Source: Candidatus Poribacteria bacterium
GTDB taxonomy: Bacteria; Poribacteria; WGA-4E; WGA-3G
Length of the DNA: 45,826 bases
NCBI GenBank assembly: GCA_009841255.1
Contig: VXMD01000009.1
Coordinates: 1 to 45,826 of the forward strand
Direction: 5' to 3'
In this document: positions 925-42,684 of the stretch, piece after piece
How positions within the stretch are numbered: position 1 is the stretch's first letter
Layout: each line of letters opens with the position of its first letter
Notes under the pieces: generated by a model
The model's input: the letters and a program-made list of their open reading frames with translations, nothing else
Told to the model about the DNA's origin: nothing
Database searches by the model: none
Made by a program: the position numbers and the translations under genes

Positions 925-1554
925 ATGAAATATATGCGGTTGTTATTGATTCAATTTGTCCTGCTTGTATTGGGATTGGTCGGTTATTGCATTGCTACTG
1001 AGATCGGCTTTGAAGCCGAAGACGCAGATGAAATTGTAGAAATCATGGAAATTTATGAAGATAAGAAAGCTTCAGGCGGTATGTATATATCGGCGGGAAA
1101 GGGCGGGGGTGGTCGCCACCCCGGTAAAGCCGATTTCGTGATTAACGTTAGAACACCGGGTCAGTACACGATGTGGGGGCGGGTGATCGCCCAAGATACG
1201 GCGAAGGACTCTTTCCATGTCACAGTCGATCAGAAGAAAAGTCCACAACCGGGTGATGCCAACATGATCTGGGATACAGGTCAGCATCAGGAGTGGACGT
1301 GGTCAAAAGTAAAATGGCGCGAAAAGAATCCGTTAACCTTTGATCTGAAACCGGGGAAACATACCGTTACATTTTGGTGCAGGGAAGGCGATACCCGTTT
1401 GGATGCCGTTTACATGGCAATAGACCCCAACGCTGTCCCCAAACTACCGAATGAAATTGAGGGTTTTGCTGTGCATCCCCGGAATCGCTTAACGACAACT
1501 TGGGCGGCGCTAAAAAATCGGATCATTCAAAGAACTGAAGTTCTCCGTCCTTGA
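925..1554 (+). CDS. Secreted carbohydrate-binding-module-like protein with LTTTW tail
   Basis: A 209-residue protein with an excellent ribosome-binding site (AGGAGG at 911-916, nine bases before the ATG). Residues 1-25 form a signal peptide (charged start, long Leu/Val stretch, then ATE). The body starts with GFEAEDAD and holds RTPGQYTMWGRV and a late FWCREGDTRLDAVYM segment. This pattern resembles CBM6/35-like beta-sandwich domains, in which an xFEAExA start and an xxLDxVxx end are usual; I infer a sugar-binding role without a named family match. The end GFAVHPRNRLTTTWAALKNR is nearly the same as the ends of the LamG-like proteins at 4513-5214 and 6172-6867, although the rest differs. The 3' end overlaps the convergent binding-protein gene by 32 bases. 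Confidence 0.75.
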   Translation: MKYMRLLLIQFVLLVLGLVGYCIATEIGFEAEDADEIVEIMEIYEDKKASGGMYISAGKGGGGRHPGKADFVINVRTPGQYTMWGRVIAQDTAKDSFHVTVDQKKSPQPGDANMIWDTGQHQEWTWSKVKWREKNPLTFDLKPGKHTVTFWCREGDTRLDAVYMAIDPNAVPKLPNEIEGFAVHPRNRLTTTWAALKNRIIQRTEVLRP

Positions 1555-3412: not shown

Positions 3413-3922
3413 CTAAGACTGCTTGTTCACCAAATAAATTCCGGTTGCGACTAACCCAGTCCCTACCAACAAACCGAGGCTCAGTTCCTCCCCTAAAATC
3501 AGATAGCTGAACAGAACACCGGATATCGGCATCAGGAAGCCTAAAATTACCAGTTTGCTCGCCTTGTATCTTCTTAGCAGGGATGTCAACACCAAAAAGC
3601 AGAAACCTGTGACAATCCATCCTTGGTAGAGCAAGCCTGCACTGCTTTGTAGCGTCCATTCGATCGGCGTATCGCCCTCAAAAATGAGACTCAGGACGTA
3701 AAAGCAGGGCATGCTTAGACCTAACAGCCAGACGAGGAGTCGGTACGGGTGAATCTCCTGAACGAACACCTTTGTCAATGTGATGCGGAGTCCCAAGAAA
3801 CACGACCCGAGGGTTACGATTATATCGCCGATGAGGTACTCTGTGATGCCGCCACCTTGTAAATTCGGCACGATTGCGAGAAAAACACCACCGAAGGCAA
3901 CGAAAATTCCCAGGCCTTTCAT
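3413..3922 (-). CDS. DMT-family (EamA) transporter, C-terminal part of a frameshifted gene
   Basis: 169 residues with about five or six hydrophobic helices and a typical second EamA repeat (GDIIVTLGSCFLGLRITLTKVF, then ending GTGLVATGIYLVNKQS). The frame is open further upstream of its ATG, through IFFYLYPFFTVLFGHFYLPNDRLST, which is expected EamA sequence lying in the wrong frame for the upstream part. So this is the second half of the gene that starts at 4311 and is not a separate gene, although the ATGA overlap at 3919-3922 would allow reinitiation. Export substrate unknown. Confidence 0.75.
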   Translation of the reverse strand: MKGLGIFVAFGGVFLAIVPNLQGGGITEYLIGDIIVTLGSCFLGLRITLTKVFVQEIHPYRLLVWLLGLSMPCFYVLSLIFEGDTPIEWTLQSSAGLLYQGWIVTGFCFLVLTSLLRRYKASKLVILGFLMPISGVLFSYLILGEELSLGLLVGTGLVATGIYLVNKQS

Positions 3923-4311
3923 GGTGGAGAGTCGATCGTTTGGAAGATAGAAGTGTCCGAACAGGACTGTGAAGAACGGGTAGAGATAGAAAAAAATGGT
4001 TGCCCGAGAGGCTGTTTGAGGTGGGTGCCGATGTTCAACGTAATCGTATGCAGGGCGTAGAGGACGGCGATCAGCAGCAATCGACGGAGTTCCTCAAAGC
4101 GCATCCGCATCGACATCCCATAGTAGAGCCCTATTCCGCCAACAGCAATAATACCTAATATGCAACGGAAGAGTGCCATTTTTAGCGGCGGGAAACCTTG
4201 TAGCCCGATTTTAACGGCAAGGGCACCGCCACCCATAAGGGAAACGATCAGCGATGCGAGGACGATAATTTTACCTGATGGGTCTTCGTTCCGAAATTCT
4301 TTTTCAAGCAT
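3919..4311 (-). CDS. DMT-family (EamA) transporter, N-terminal part of a frameshifted gene
   Basis: The first about 95 residues look like a normal EamA N-terminal repeat (IIVLASLIVSLMGGGALAVKIGL, LKMALFRCILGIIAVGGIGLYYG, then YALHTITLNIGTHL). After THL the frame runs into polar sequence that does not fit a membrane protein (QPLGQPFFSISTRSSQS). In another frame the same DNA reads QTASRATIFFYLYPFF, which does fit. From 3413 to 4311 there are 899 bases, one short of a 300-codon gene. That fits a single-base deletion near 4010-4025, or a sequencing error at that place. Confidence 0.75.
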   Translation of the reverse strand: MLEKEFRNEDPSGKIIVLASLIVSLMGGGALAVKIGLQGFPPLKMALFRCILGIIAVGGIGLYYGMSMRMRFEELRRLLLIAVLYALHTITLNIGTHLKQPLGQPFFSISTRSSQSCSDTSIFQTIDSPP

Positions 4312-4512: not shown

Positions 4513-5214
4513 TTATCGCTGCTTGAGTTGTCCCCATATTAGGGTTAATCTCACCTCTGGGGAGACGTTCAATCCGGAAATGGTGAAGGAATCCGCCCAT
4601 GCCGCGCCGACCCACTCGTTTGCGATGTTAATGCCTTCCATGACAAAACCGAGGATTTCGATTTTATCGAAGTTTGCATCTTGGAACGCTGCACGGAGTT
4701 TGCCGTCCGCAAACAGCACAAAACGTCCGGCATTAAACTGGAGTTCCATCTTTTTCAGGACATCCGTATCCCAGCGGGTGCGTGGCTCTCTGGAGAGCCG
4801 AGTTCGGAAGGGATGGCTGCTCCCTTTACCGTCGAAACGCCGCGCTCTGATTTCATCTGGGAAAAACACGTAGAAGAACGGATCTTCTTTCGGAGTGTCC
4901 GGAAAACGGCGTCCTACACAAAAACCGAAACGTGTTTTGTCGCCCCCGAAGTCGTTTATTGTGATTGTGAAGTTTCTGTAGGGCGGTGGGAGCGCTGTGA
5001 ATTGGTAGAGCTCGTATTCTACATCCCAGTCGCGGTTGACCTCTGCGTGTAAGAACCCGTCACTGACTTTCCAGATGGAATCGTTTCCGACGACGCGCCA
5101 CGCCTCGGGCTTTTCGGCATCGAAATCGTCGCGCCACGTCTCGGCGGAGGCGGCAAAGATGCAGCTTATGAGCATATAGAGAAATATGAGGCGTGTTGCG
5201 TTTTTATGTAGCAT
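4513..5214 (-). CDS. Secreted LamG/DUF1080-like protein with C-terminal tail (copy 2 of module)
   Basis: 233 residues with a signal peptide (about 1-25, ending ASAE) followed by WRDDFDAEKPEAWRVVGND. The order of motifs (a DDF start, WKVSDGFLHAE, a middle FTIT strand, MELQFNAGRFVLFADGKL, and a late DSFTISG) is that of concanavalin-like jelly-roll domains of the LamG/DUF1080 type. No catalytic residues can be named. It is a paralogue of the product at 6172-6867, with motif-by-motif correspondence (VGNDSxWxVxDGFLxAE; DANFDxI). It ends LNVSPEVRLTLIWGQLKQR, the tail shared with two other secreted proteins here. It starts only three bases after the stop of the W/Y-rich gene at 5218-5961, so the two are surely cotranscribed. 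Confidence 0.75.
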   Translation of the reverse strand: MLHKNATRLIFLYMLISCIFAASAETWRDDFDAEKPEAWRVVGNDSIWKVSDGFLHAEVNRDWDVEYELYQFTALPPPYRNFTITINDFGGDKTRFGFCVGRRFPDTPKEDPFFYVFFPDEIRARRFDGKGSSHPFRTRLSREPRTRWDTDVLKKMELQFNAGRFVLFADGKLRAAFQDANFDKIEILGFVMEGINIANEWVGAAWADSFTISGLNVSPEVRLTLIWGQLKQR

Positions 5215-5217
5215 AGA

Positions 5218-5961
5218 CTAATTGATTTTGATGCAGTCGTACCACTGTTGTGTTTTCTTTCCTTTTCGGCTCAGGACCCCAGGTTCGCGTTCGACTGGGG
5301 GACCGAAGTCTCCATCTTTCTGTTTTAGGACGTTCCAGTCGGGTGGGAACCATGTTCTGAGGGTTTTGCAGTTGACTTCAACGGTTTCGCCCTCCCATCC
5401 ACCGATTTTGTAATACATCGGGCAGACCCACCGTTCTGCGCCGCGGGCATACCGCCGCCAGCCAATGACGGAGGCTTGTGCTCGGATAATGTTGCCGTCC
5501 CGCCAGTGTCGTTCGACGCCGCTCCACGGATAGCCCGTCGTTCCGCCGCCGACACTAATTTCACTCCATCCTAAATCGTCGCGGAGCGTAATATAGGAGA
5601 AGTTTGTGCCCCACGGTGTGTCATCTGTGCCGAAATACCACCGCTGTCCACGATACCAACGGAGCGCGCCCCGGATGCTTGAACGGGAAACCGATGCACT
5701 TTCGATGGTTTCTACGATGTCGAACCGTCCCCTATTGTTATAGGGGTTGTGGACACCGGCGCAGAGGGTCAGCGAGTTGACTTCAGGTCCGAACCACGTG
5801 CCGTTTGATCCCGGAGTTCTATAATAGAACCCTGAATTCACGGGTTGCGCACGTTCCCCTGGGTTTAGCCTTGCTCTGGCGTGGGTCGTCCAAAAGGCGA
5901 TGCCGAGAACCACCACGAGTAGGAATACGTCAAAAATTAGGTCCAAGTTTTTTCGTAACAT
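5218..5961 (-). CDS. Secreted/anchored W- and Y-rich protein of unknown family (copy 2 of module)
   Basis: 247 residues. The N-terminus (LIFDVFLLVVVLGIAFWTT) is a signal peptide or anchor. I do not recognise the family. It is a clear paralogue of the product at 6904-7665. Shared blocks in order are WFGPExxSxxLC, a Gly-Phe-Asp-Ile segment, WYRxQxWxFxTxDTPWGT, LGWxxI, TTGxPWSGxExHWRDG, a YYKxG block, and a final LSRxxKxxxxWYDC. One Cys near residue 66 and one near the C-terminus are kept in both copies and could form a disulfide. Many Trp and Tyr residues suggest a carbohydrate-facing beta protein, but this is inference. It is the first gene of the second module, behind the heptad repeats and MITE. 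Confidence 0.7.
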   Translation of the reverse strand: MLRKNLDLIFDVFLLVVVLGIAFWTTHARARLNPGERAQPVNSGFYYRTPGSNGTWFGPEVNSLTLCAGVHNPYNNRGRFDIVETIESASVSRSSIRGALRWYRGQRWYFGTDDTPWGTNFSYITLRDDLGWSEISVGGGTTGYPWSGVERHWRDGNIIRAQASVIGWRRYARGAERWVCPMYYKIGGWEGETVEVNCKTLRTWFPPDWNVLKQKDGDFGPPVEREPGVLSRKGKKTQQWYDCIKIN

Positions 5962-5967
5962 TTTTTT

Positions 5968-6004
5968 ATAGTTACCAGTGACCAGTTGTCAGTTATCAGT
6001 TAAG
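5968..6004. repeat. Heptad-like CAGTTATCAGTT repeat, left piece
   Basis: The sequence holds degenerate 7-8-base units of the type AGTTGTC/AGTTATC/AGTTAAG. The same family occurs at 14168-14275, 14825-14957 and 16467-16554. A short piece in the same direction (GGTTATCAGCGGTCAG, 6160-6175) lies beyond the MITE. Confidence 0.5.
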
Positions 6005-6033
6005 ATGCTCTTTTGCAAGAAAAGTTATCCTTT

Positions 6034-6157
6034 TATAGTAAAGTCCAAAAACCTGTGAACACTTTTATGGTCGCGTAGCCTGTTCGTCTGCGTGCTAAAG
6101 AGGCACAAACTAACAGTTTATGCTACAGCAGTCAACTTATTTTTCCACTTTACTATA
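6034..6157. mobile_element. MITE, 124 bp, copy 1
   Basis: The ends are inverted repeats (TATAGTAAAGT at 6034-6044 and its complement ACTTTACTATA at 6147-6157). The 124-bp interior is about 90% the same as 42549-42672 by eye, and both copies have equal length. It contains no coding frame. Inside are two small hairpins (around GCACAAACTAACAGTTTATG with a GCTAC tail, and around GTAGCCTGTTCGTCTGC), similar in style to the REP-like hairpins of the window. It sits between the two paralogous secreted modules. Confidence 0.8.
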
Positions 6158-6171
6158 ATGGTTATCAGCGG

Positions 6172-6867
6172 TCAGGGTTGTTTTTGTTTCAAACTTGCCC
6201 ATGCAGTTGTTAATTTCCGTTTTGGTGAGACTGCGAGTCCGTCAATCGTAAATGTGTTTACCCACGCGCTCCCTCTGTTAACGTCCTCTGTAACAAATCC
6301 GGCGAGTACGAAGGCGATGGTGTCAATGTGATCGAAGTTTGCATCCGTGAAGTCGAGGCGGGACTCACCATCCGCATTCAATTGGAATCTTCCGTCTTTG
6401 AAGTGGAGTTCCATCTGTTGGAGGGCATCGGTGTTCCAGCGTCGTTCGGGTCCGACAAACACACCGCTCCCCCGTGCGGCTTGCATATCGTTCGTAAAAA
6501 AGAGATAGTAGCCGAATTCCTCCACCTCGGTCAAGGGATTTTGGAAGTGCTTTGCGAGTGCAATGCCGAATCGAGCACGCGCGGCACCGACAGTCTCAAG
6601 GGTGATTGTAAAGTCATTATAAGGACCCGGATAGGCGATGAGTTGGTAGCGTTCAAATATGACGCTCCATTGGTTTTGTGCCTGAATTTCTGCCCTCAAA
6701 AATCCATCCTCGACCGTCCAGACAGAATCGTTTCCGACGTGCCGCCAGTCCTCTACCGCCTCTTGTTCAAAGTGATCCTCCCAAAAAGCGGCGTTTGTGT
6801 TCGCTTGCAAAAGGAGCACGGAGTAAAAAATGATGAGTGCTTTCAGCGTCCCTGTAATGTTTTTCAT
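6172..6867 (-). CDS. Secreted LamG/DUF1080-like protein with LTTAW tail (copy 1 of module)
   Basis: 231 residues with a signal peptide (about 1-27, ending TNAA) and a jelly-roll-like body: FWEDHFEQEAVEDWRHVGND, VWTVEDGFLRAE, FTITLETVG, MELHFKDGRFQLNADGE, DANFDHIDTIAFVLAG, NTFTIDG. It is a paralogue of the protein at 4513-5214 and probably binds or processes glycans outside the cytoplasm, although no active-site residues can be identified. It ends LAVSPKRKLTTAWASLKQKQ. It follows the W/Y-rich gene after 36 bases on the same strand. The MITE begins 15 bases beyond its stop and may have been inserted just behind the gene. Confidence 0.75.
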   Translation of the reverse strand: MKNITGTLKALIIFYSVLLLQANTNAAFWEDHFEQEAVEDWRHVGNDSVWTVEDGFLRAEIQAQNQWSVIFERYQLIAYPGPYNDFTITLETVGAARARFGIALAKHFQNPLTEVEEFGYYLFFTNDMQAARGSGVFVGPERRWNTDALQQMELHFKDGRFQLNADGESRLDFTDANFDHIDTIAFVLAGFVTEDVNRGSAWVNTFTIDGLAVSPKRKLTTAWASLKQKQP

Positions 6868-6903
6868 TTAAATTCTTAATCTTCATGAAACCGCGCCAGC
6901 GGA

Positions 6904-7665
6904 TTATTTTAGCGGTAAGCAGTCGTACCAATTATCTGCGCCTTTTTCTCGGCGGCTGAGTTGATTGGATTTGGGACGAAACGTAGGGTCCGTAAAGTGT
7001 TCCTCGGTGTGACTGAGTACCTTCAAGTTATGTCGCCCCGTTCCAGTCGCGCAGGTGTAGTCCAAAGTTCCGTTTTTGTAATATTTGGGCGCGAGGTATT
7101 TCTTGCCCGCATGCTCATAAGGGTAGTAGCCGATTATTTCCGACTTGGATTTCACGAAGTCTCCGTCGCGCCAGTGCTCCTCGAATCCGCTCCAAGGGAA
7201 TCCGGTCGTGCTGTTCCCAGAATCGATATCCGTCCAACCGATCTCGGATGCGAGGATGAGGCGGACAGTGTCTGTGCCCCAAGGTGTATCGGCAGTCGCG
7301 AAACGCCATTCCTGTTTCCGATACCACCACACTTTCCCCGGTCGTGAGGAGGGCCAGACTTCGGCTTCTTCTCGGGTATAGATGATGTCAAAGAATCCGG
7401 CGTCGTTAAATGGGTGTGCCATCATCGGACAAAGCACCCGACTGTCGATTTCCGGTCCGAACCATCGACTTTCGCCTTCGGATGCTATGTATTTGCCCGG
7501 GTTTCGGTAATAGTCGCCAGCGGCTTTGGGAATGGCAATCTCCTGAAGGATAATTCTCTCTCCATCATTATACGTGGCATGTACACCAGCATTTGCGGGG
7601 AGAAGGAGAAATAGGAGAGCACCGATTGTTGTTAGTGTGAGTGTAAAGAAGTGCTTCTGTGTCAT
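6904..7665 (-). CDS. Secreted W- and Y-rich protein of unknown family (copy 1 of module)
   Basis: 253 residues with a good signal peptide (FFTLTLTTIGALLFLLLPANA, about 1-26). The family is not recognised. It matches the product at 5218-5961 through all main blocks (WFGPEIDSRVLC, WYRKQEWRFATADTPWGT, IGWTDI, TTGFPWSGFEEHWRDG, YYKNG, LSRREKGADNWYDC). Its ATG overlaps the stop of the upstream carboxypeptidase-regulatory-like gene as ATGA (7662-7665), a sign of translational coupling. It therefore belongs to one operon of exported proteins running from 9203 to 4513. Confidence 0.72.
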   Translation of the reverse strand: MTQKHFFTLTLTTIGALLFLLLPANAGVHATYNDGERIILQEIAIPKAAGDYYRNPGKYIASEGESRWFGPEIDSRVLCPMMAHPFNDAGFFDIIYTREEAEVWPSSRPGKVWWYRKQEWRFATADTPWGTDTVRLILASEIGWTDIDSGNSTTGFPWSGFEEHWRDGDFVKSKSEIIGYYPYEHAGKKYLAPKYYKNGTLDYTCATGTGRHNLKVLSHTEEHFTDPTFRPKSNQLSRREKGADNWYDCLPLK

Positions 7666-9203
7666 TTTACAAAAGGTGTGCCGTCTTGCCTGCCTATGTA
7701 GATGCGATATCCGGTGCCAGAAGTAGGGATTTCAACCCGCTTTTGAATAAGTGTCCGTTGATACCGTTCCGTCGCCACTTCAAACACGGCGTGAACAGCA
7801 CGGATGTGGAGCAGATACTGTGCCTCTGTTAGGTTGCAGAATTTGAACGTACCGTGCGCGTCCGTTTCCACCTCAAACCGATCCAGCGTCATCGACATGT
7901 CAGACGGATGTAATTCCCAGGGATACCATGCGCGCGAAACGACAGCGTTGTGGACAGGGTCACCTGTATCTGCCCAGAAAACTTGTCCCTGTAGTGTTGT
8001 CGTGGGTTGATCCACTATAACAGATACCTGTTCAGGACACATCGCGGCGTCCACGTCAATTCGGGTTGCCGAGATGCCGTCTCCAACAATATAGCAACTA
8101 TATTTCTCCGCAAAAAGCCCCTCAACGACAAAAGCGGATTCCGTCACAGGAAAGTGTCTCGACAAAATCGGCCTGTATAATACCAACGGATTCAGGCTCG
8201 GCTCCATCTGTGTGTCCACGGGGAACACCTTCACAGCATACTGCCCGTCAGCGGGTATATGCTGCGGGAGGATCACACGTCCTTTAACGCGTGCCGCCTT
8301 CTTTAGTGGTAGCATTGACGGCATCCGACGGATATCTACGTTTTCGTATACCCTCGAAAAGTACCCCTTTTTGCCGACCTCAAGTGAAAGGAGTCGTGGT
8401 TCAGTCTCTAAGACCTCTATTTGAAAGTTGCCAGTCCCGTTTGTTTGTGTTGATGAGAGGAGGGCACTATGTCCATGAGATGTTTCTGCGTGCCGCGTTG
8501 CATGAATCTGTGCATCTGCTACGGGTCGTTCCTGTGCATCGACAACCGTGCCGCGTAACGTCTTCAATTTCGGCAGACGGACAGAAATCTGTGCCTGCTG
8601 TTGTGGATGAATGGACGCTATAAACGCTATAATAAGACCGTTCTGAGAAATTGTCAAGGTGTATTCGATCGGATAGAGTTCAGTAAAATGGAAATTGCCC
8701 GCGGGTCCTGTCTTCACAGCGTGCTCAATGGGTGCGGCGGCGCGAAAGAAGTCCGCTGACGTGTTGTGCATCTTCAGGTTCACAATAAGTCCAGCGACAT
8801 TTCCCTCACCCGAAACGTTCCCTTGCAGCGATAGTGTTCGCCGCAACGCAATCATCCCCAAATTATATTTCTTTTTGCTGGGGACCATTTCCTTCTGGAA
8901 GCGTTTCGCCTGATACTGTGGATGGAGTGCCATGAGTGAGAAGGCGTGGTAGGTTTGGTTTCCGTTGGGGATGACCAACGAAAAAGTGCCTTTCGCGTCC
9001 GTTACTGTTGCGTGTGCGAACTCCCGATCTGGATAGACCTGCTCAATTTTTTCAACAGCGATGCGCACGAGGACCTCCGGGATCGGATGTCCATCTTGGG
9101 CATCAAGGAACGTCCCGTGGAAGGTGGTCTCCGGTGTTTGGCAGATGCCGGAGATGGTGCCGAGAAAGAGCAGCAAAATTGAATGAATGATATAATTTTG
9201 CAT
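7662..9203 (-). CDS. Exported protein with repeated carboxypeptidase-regulatory-like domains
   Basis: About 513 residues. The frame is open up to 9254, but the first 17 codons would lie in the tRNA terminator. The ATG at 9203 begins a clean signal peptide (MQNYIIHSILLLFLGTISG), so I place the start there, though no strong ribosome-binding site is visible. The mature part holds about five modules of the CarboxypepD_reg/transthyretin-like type: TFHGTFLDAQDGHPIPEVLV, LSLQGNVSGEGNVAGLIV, LRGTVVDAQERPVADAQI, VKGRVILPQH, and LQGQVFWADTGDPVHNAVV, with TDAxGxFxF turns between strands. Such modules are usually structural or adhesive. No peptidase motif is present. As the first gene of the operon it may be a scaffold for the two downstream modules (inference). 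Confidence 0.78.
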   Translation of the reverse strand: MQNYIIHSILLLFLGTISGICQTPETTFHGTFLDAQDGHPIPEVLVRIAVEKIEQVYPDREFAHATVTDAKGTFSLVIPNGNQTYHAFSLMALHPQYQAKRFQKEMVPSKKKYNLGMIALRRTLSLQGNVSGEGNVAGLIVNLKMHNTSADFFRAAAPIEHAVKTGPAGNFHFTELYPIEYTLTISQNGLIIAFIASIHPQQQAQISVRLPKLKTLRGTVVDAQERPVADAQIHATRHAETSHGHSALLSSTQTNGTGNFQIEVLETEPRLLSLEVGKKGYFSRVYENVDIRRMPSMLPLKKAARVKGRVILPQHIPADGQYAVKVFPVDTQMEPSLNPLVLYRPILSRHFPVTESAFVVEGLFAEKYSCYIVGDGISATRIDVDAAMCPEQVSVIVDQPTTTLQGQVFWADTGDPVHNAVVSRAWYPWELHPSDMSMTLDRFEVETDAHGTFKFCNLTEAQYLLHIRAVHAVFEVATERYQRTLIQKRVEIPTSGTGYRIYIGRQDGTPFVK

Positions 9204-42543: not shown

Positions 42544-42548
42544 ATTTT

Positions 42549-42672
42549 TATAGTAAAGCCCATAATTACATGAACACTTTTATGGTAGCGTAGACTGTCA
42601 GTCTGCGTGCTAAAGAGGCACAAACTAACAGTTTATGCTACATCAGTCAACTTATTTTTCGACTTTACTATA
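42549..42672. mobile_element. MITE, 124 bp, copy 2
   Basis: Ends TATAGTAAAG and its complement CTTTACTATA. Same length as the copy at 6034-6157, with few differences, most of them near the left end. Inner hairpins GACTGTCAGTC (after GTAG) and AAACTAACAGTTT (before ATGCTAC) are kept. Confidence 0.82.
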
Positions 42673-42684
42673 ATTTTACCGCCG

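Follow-up and report, generated by a model that had tools for sequence, protein, structure and literature searches.

The two jelly-roll proteins encoded by an operon of Candidatus Poribacteria end in the same short, previously unnamed sequence of about 17 residues, and this C-terminal tag recurs at the very end of otherwise unrelated exported proteins in every Poribacteria genome searched. The tag is conserved at the protein level and is restricted to this uncultured, ecologically major sponge-associated phylum. We infer that, once a protein has been exported by Sec, its tag is probably read as a C-terminal signal for sorting or docking that is specific to the phylum. Both the tag and the proteome-wide class of proteins carrying it were overlooked in a preliminary description of the operon. 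The window referred to below is the whole stretch of DNA that was analysed (contig VXMD01000009.1, 45,826 nucleotides), and its relevant features are as follows.

925-1554, plus strand: exported protein not belonging to the operon, the third in the window with a tag (1462-1518; tag profile E 1.8e-10)
4513-5214, minus strand: jelly-roll exported protein copy B, 233 aa
4519-4575, minus strand: tag GLNVSPEVRLTLIWGQLKQ of jelly-roll copy B (tag profile E 1.5e-9)
5218-5961, minus strand: W/Y-rich exported protein copy B (W_B), 247 aa, the more widely kept copy
6030-6160, plus strand: MITE of 131 bp with 19-nt inverted ends, between the two W/jelly-roll pairs (repeat search of the genome)
6172-6867, minus strand: copy A of the exported jelly-roll protein, 231 aa, pairing with W_A; ConA-like by predicted structure
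6184-6240, minus strand: tag GLAVSPKRKLTTAWASLKQ of jelly-roll copy A (tag profile E 1.1e-10)
6904-7665, minus strand: W/Y-rich exported protein copy A (W_A), 253 aa
7662-9203, minus strand: CarboxypepD_reg-like protein of 513 aa (Pfam), exported, from the gene that opens the operon; no C-terminal tag

Operon structure and predicted folds

The gene order proposed earlier, with a CarboxypepD_reg gene followed by a W/Y-rich (W) plus jelly-roll pair, a MITE and a second such pair, agrees with the open reading frames, as do the overlap and the gaps: W_A overlaps the CarboxypepD_reg gene by 4 bases, 36 bases lie between W_A and jelly-roll A, and 3 bases between W_B and jelly-roll B. A signal-peptide-like N-terminal stretch is found in all five proteins, in line with the export claimed for them, and neither PADLOC nor PHROGs returned anything relevant for any of the five. 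In the first protein, Pfam detected PF13620 in four stretches (E 6.1e-26, 91 bits versus a cut-off of 32.3) and also CarbopepD_reg_2 (E 1.1e-12). The element between the two pairs is rightly called a MITE, since this short sequence has 19-nt terminal inverted repeats and is found 11 times in the genome at near full length (at least 84% identity); a second copy in the window, at 42546-42674, is 90% identical, and some relatives have only 15-20 bp at the position of the MITE. Upstream of the operon are genes for tRNA-Glu and tRNA-Lys. A DMT/EamA-type transporter at 3413-4311 on the minus strand is present as two overlapping ORFs (130 and 169 aa); in relatives it is encoded by one undivided ORF of about 297-299 aa, and the split in the window is a frameshift, either real or made by the assembly.

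The two W proteins share 37% identity across 243 residues (E 8e-54) and contain all the motifs listed for them before (WYRxQxW, DTPWGT and PWSGxExHWRDG); three cysteines are well conserved in the family. The statement that this family is not recognisable also held, as there was no significant Pfam or NCBIfam match, and a W profile found nothing among the sequences of solved structures (best E 0.77). Structure prediction, proposed earlier as a check, gave a confident AlphaFold model (mean pLDDT 86) that is rich in beta structure with long strands. Foldseek retrieved no PDB match at E <= 0.001 and a second structural comparison reached a best Z of 3.3, so that the model matched no solved fold; the lack of a PDB match is, however, no proof of a new fold. 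Barrels of the GFP-like, BamA and VtrC types were considered for W and rejected, the matches being weak only (Z 3.3 or less).

The jelly-roll proteins are 42% identical to each other (E 2e-60). Here the sequence models were silent, with no significant Pfam or NCBIfam match for either protein, and it was the predicted structure of jelly-roll A (mean pLDDT 80) that revealed a two-sheet jelly roll of the ConA-like/LamG type, with a best PDB match at E 4.1e-6 and 254 PDB chains at E <= 0.001. These matches comprise ConA-like enzymes, lectins and carbohydrate-binding modules, and bear out the LamG-like partner of the preliminary description. The fold is the same as that of Laminin_G_3 and other ConA-like jelly rolls, to which most tagged proteins belong (see below), but the two operon proteins have diverged too far to be matched by Pfam. 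In the model of jelly-roll A the sandwich ends at residue 209, and residues 215-228 form a detached helix of low confidence (pLDDT about 40-55) which, as modelled, corresponds to the tag and would lie outside the fold. Within the jelly-roll family of the operon, the W and the K of the tag are among the most conserved columns.

W and its jelly-roll partner may together form a two-component glycan-binding surface system, a reading compatible with the tag as a sorting signal. Their obligate pairing, their export and a jelly-roll fold close to those of lectins and polysaccharide-active proteins speak for it, whereas W has no fold match and likeness to a jelly roll is by itself no proof of sugar binding; we therefore hold it as a tentative, if quite conceivable, reading.

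Sequence and position of the tag

When jelly-roll A was used to search its own genome, the matches were copy B and, on other exported proteins, short matches to its last 20 or so residues. A profile built from six tails found by this search recovered more than 100 places in the same genome at E <= 0.01 among the 150 matches listed. The consensus is [LFT]-[APS]-V-[ESD]-P-x-[GDA]-K-L-[AT]-T-T-W-[GA]-x-[LI]-K, followed by 1 to about 6 residues and the stop. The conservation of P, W, [GA] and the final K is partly preset, as these were demanded by the collecting pattern, while K9 and L10 were demanded only as broad classes. Among the freely scored residues of 78 aligned tags, V was kept in 76, T12 in 65 and T13 in 57, and no conserved cysteine was seen in these tags.

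All 244 relaxed matches among 2,184 distinct fetched ORFs lay at most 15 residues from the stop, and neither internal matches nor the reversed motif occurred in this set; the loci had largely been fetched for the tag, which biases the count and does not explain the absence of internal matches. Because synonymous codons vary freely at the fixed residues of the tag, selection acts on its protein sequence. No transmembrane helix was apparent in the last 45 residues of the 244 tagged ORFs, where the best 15-residue hydropathy had a median of 0.71 and exceeded 1.6 in four of them. The tag profile found nothing among the sequences of solved structures (best E 0.09), and the motif strings were absent from the literature searched, in a search that misses most subscription-journal papers.

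Part of the matches in the window's own genome were read out individually, giving 84 tagged ORFs. As judged by a simple hydropathy rule, 76 of these have a signal-peptide-like start versus 14 of 36 control ORFs from the window, and several of the remaining 8 look truncated or mis-started. A tag on about 100 exported proteins per genome provides a direct list of likely surface proteins.

Distribution of the tag

The genomes compared are mostly MAGs. The tag profile matched in 20 of 20 Poribacteria genomes from ten families, at 21-147 places each, and had no match in any of 39 genomes from outside Poribacteria. A separate DNA pattern, which left the position free, was run against 84,980 species genomes; among the matches listed, 77 of 80 records were Poribacteria, and 90 of 90 ORF matches lay 1-12 residues before the stop. 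The three records with other names are MAGs with one or two tagged places each, on contigs of 3.8-21.5 kb. They are most simply regarded as stray Poribacteria contigs rather than as a tag outside the phylum, and this is probably what they are; transfer of the tag to these lineages is possible. The three MAGs are named Pseudomonadota, Planctomycetota and Deltaproteobacteria (L159, L180 and L204), and two of the tagged contigs are under 5 kb. A viral tag was also considered and rejected, the single match in 2.9 million viral contigs being in a frame that is not tag-like. The tag can serve as a marker for assigning contigs to Poribacteria.

The W family is distributed differently. Of the 59 genomes from the family to which the window belongs, 57 matched the W profile, as against a single genome from the other nine families of the phylum. 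Since W is almost confined to one family whereas the tag occurs across the phylum, W can be ruled out as a general receptor of the tag.

Relation to known C-terminal sorting signals

In earlier cases, sorting machines were discovered by way of C-terminal tags that recur across a genome, as myxosortase was through MYXO-CTERM (PMC11980579), and the Poribacteria tag allows a concrete search for its reader protein. MYXO-CTERM is also the nearest precedent for a phylum-wide tag, being found throughout the Myxococcota at the C-terminus of dozens of exported surface proteins per genome whose bodies are otherwise unrelated (PMC11980579). Its signature, however, combines an invariant cysteine with a transmembrane helix and an end rich in arginine (PMC11980579), whereas the Poribacteria tag has neither the helix nor a conserved cysteine. 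PEP-CTERM is likewise a genome-wide C-terminal tag on many exported proteins, but it depends on an exosortase and on a transmembrane segment. No such segment was found in the Poribacteria tag, and the exosortase model PF09721 had no match in the window's genome, which is about 96% complete. With no transmembrane segment, conserved cysteine or genomic exosortase, the tag does not belong with the PEP-CTERM, MYXO-CTERM or LPXTG-type tails. There was no sorting-tail model among the best 25 of 34 families for the 84 tagged proteins.

The type A tail of type IX secretion (T9SS; TIGR04183, Por_Secre_tail) is, like the tag, a C-terminal signal on Sec-exported proteins, and it is present in this genome, where 42 tails scored over cut-off, mostly on larger proteins. 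It covers about 72 positions, has an Ig-like fold and sits on large proteins, whereas the tag has about 17 residues and no sequence likeness to it; TIGR04183 had no match in the jelly-roll proteins of the operon. A single-cell study from 2014 described WD40 proteins of Poribacteria with T9SS-type tails but reported no structural genes of the system (PMC3909097). In the genome of the window, PorV scored over cut-off (G000:C19:39201-39779), and an SprA-like protein of 1412 aa (L245 2558-6793, minus strand, G000:C82) matched TIGR04189 at E 1.2e-27 with 95.7 bits versus a cut-off of 200. These divergent SprA and PorV candidates suggest, by sequence likeness, that Poribacteria have type IX secretion genes, and they bear on the point left open in 2014 (PMC3909097). 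Furthermore, seven proteins combine one and the same unnamed domain with a T9SS tail and another combines it with the short tag; both endings are also seen on propellers. Such a 'choice of anchor' pattern suggests that both endings serve related ends, and a sorting or docking role is favoured for the tag because the same domains can take one or the other.

If the tag acts as such a signal, a tagged protein would cross the inner membrane by Sec and then fold, and a Poribacteria-specific receptor or outer-membrane machine would recognise the free tag and move the protein to, or attach it at, the cell surface; the divergent type IX secretion genes are candidate readers. Poribacteria may even have a C-terminal sorting system of their own, with a tag of about 17 residues that lacks a membrane anchor or folded domain, a dedicated putative receptor or sortase, and about 100 surface proteins per genome throughout the phylum, although we would stop somewhat short of calling this probable. 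Alternatively, the tag might be a second, short T9SS substrate signal that PorV and SprA-like proteins recognise in the same way as the longer type A tail. The 42 type A tails, PorV and the SprA-like protein (under cut-off) in this genome fit such a view, as do the domains found with either ending, but the tag is absent from the 39 genomes outside the phylum (some of which may lack T9SS) and comes without an Ig-like domain, and we regard this alternative as possible but rather doubtful.

Proteins that carry the tag

Among the 84 tagged proteins of the genome, Laminin_G_3 was assigned to 48, 3keto-disac_hyd to 12 and the C-terminal lectin domain of GH59 to 7, and the further bodies include PD40 propellers, CBM4_9, F5/8C and domains without assignment. 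Once tags and N-termini had been cut off, phmmer at E 1e-3 left the 244 tagged proteins in 18 groups that were not connected to one another. Part of the set may nevertheless share a remote common descent below the reach of phmmer, since most tagged proteins have beta-rich, lectin-like folds. Laminin_G_3 and 3keto-disac_hyd are both jelly rolls, and on this ground the tail could be no signal at all but a C-terminus that one LamG-like family kept as it expanded. We consider this unlikely, as the 18 unconnected groups of tagged bodies also take in beta-propellers, CBM4_9, F5/8C and domains without assignment, and as the tag lies outside the fold of the jelly-roll model, yet has two of the best conserved columns. 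A role in marking proteins for turnover or quality control by periplasmic proteases would suit a short C-terminal tag that is probably not part of the fold. It is very improbable for one that carries charge, has variable residues after its closing K and persists across the phylum; the 15-residue conserved motif also exceeds what C-terminal degrons usually need.

On G000:C62 (L061 and L035), neighbouring genes encode proteins with unrelated folds, TolB-like propellers and members of a jelly-roll family, all of which end in the tag.

Pairing, age and conservation of the module

A same-strand jelly-roll gene was found within 700 bp of each of the 78 distinct W genes fetched. The constant pairing described earlier is thereby upheld, and the opposite case, in which the two families would be found mostly apart, does not apply because all 78 W genes adjoin such a partner. 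The common layout is CarboxypepD_reg - (W_A) - jelly-roll A - W_B - jelly-roll B, and of the 20 longer loci retrieved, 18 contain a CarboxypepD_reg homologue; in several genomes the module lies in the same neighbourhood (purA and a DMT transporter). About half of the genomes lack W_A but retain jelly-roll A.

In the trees, jelly-roll A and jelly-roll B form separate clades, each with all four genera of the family, and W_A and W_B are also separate, the W_A members coming from two genera. Since the copy-specific clades hold members of several genera, the duplication is old and predates the genera of the family. The dN/dS values of orthologues ranged from 0.06 to 0.14, indicating purifying selection on every copy and, by this crude measure, no sign of adaptive diversification; only orthologues were used because the copies within a genome are saturated at synonymous sites. 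Of the preliminary interpretation, the pairing of W with the jelly-roll protein, the export and the jelly-roll fold thus stand, whereas diversification by duplication, as a recent process, is not supported in view of copies that predate the genera, the low dN/dS and the absence of W_A from about half of the genomes. The operon would rather represent one ancient exported set of the CarboxypepD_reg protein, W and their obligate neighbours, the jelly-roll proteins, and these are probably parts of one extracytoplasmic complex.

A further expanded array is present in a genome of genus g3 (L049, G056:C92, 2091-6241 and 13914-15784), where two additional W genes are accompanied by series of divergent jelly-roll genes with tags and by one more CarboxypepD_reg gene.
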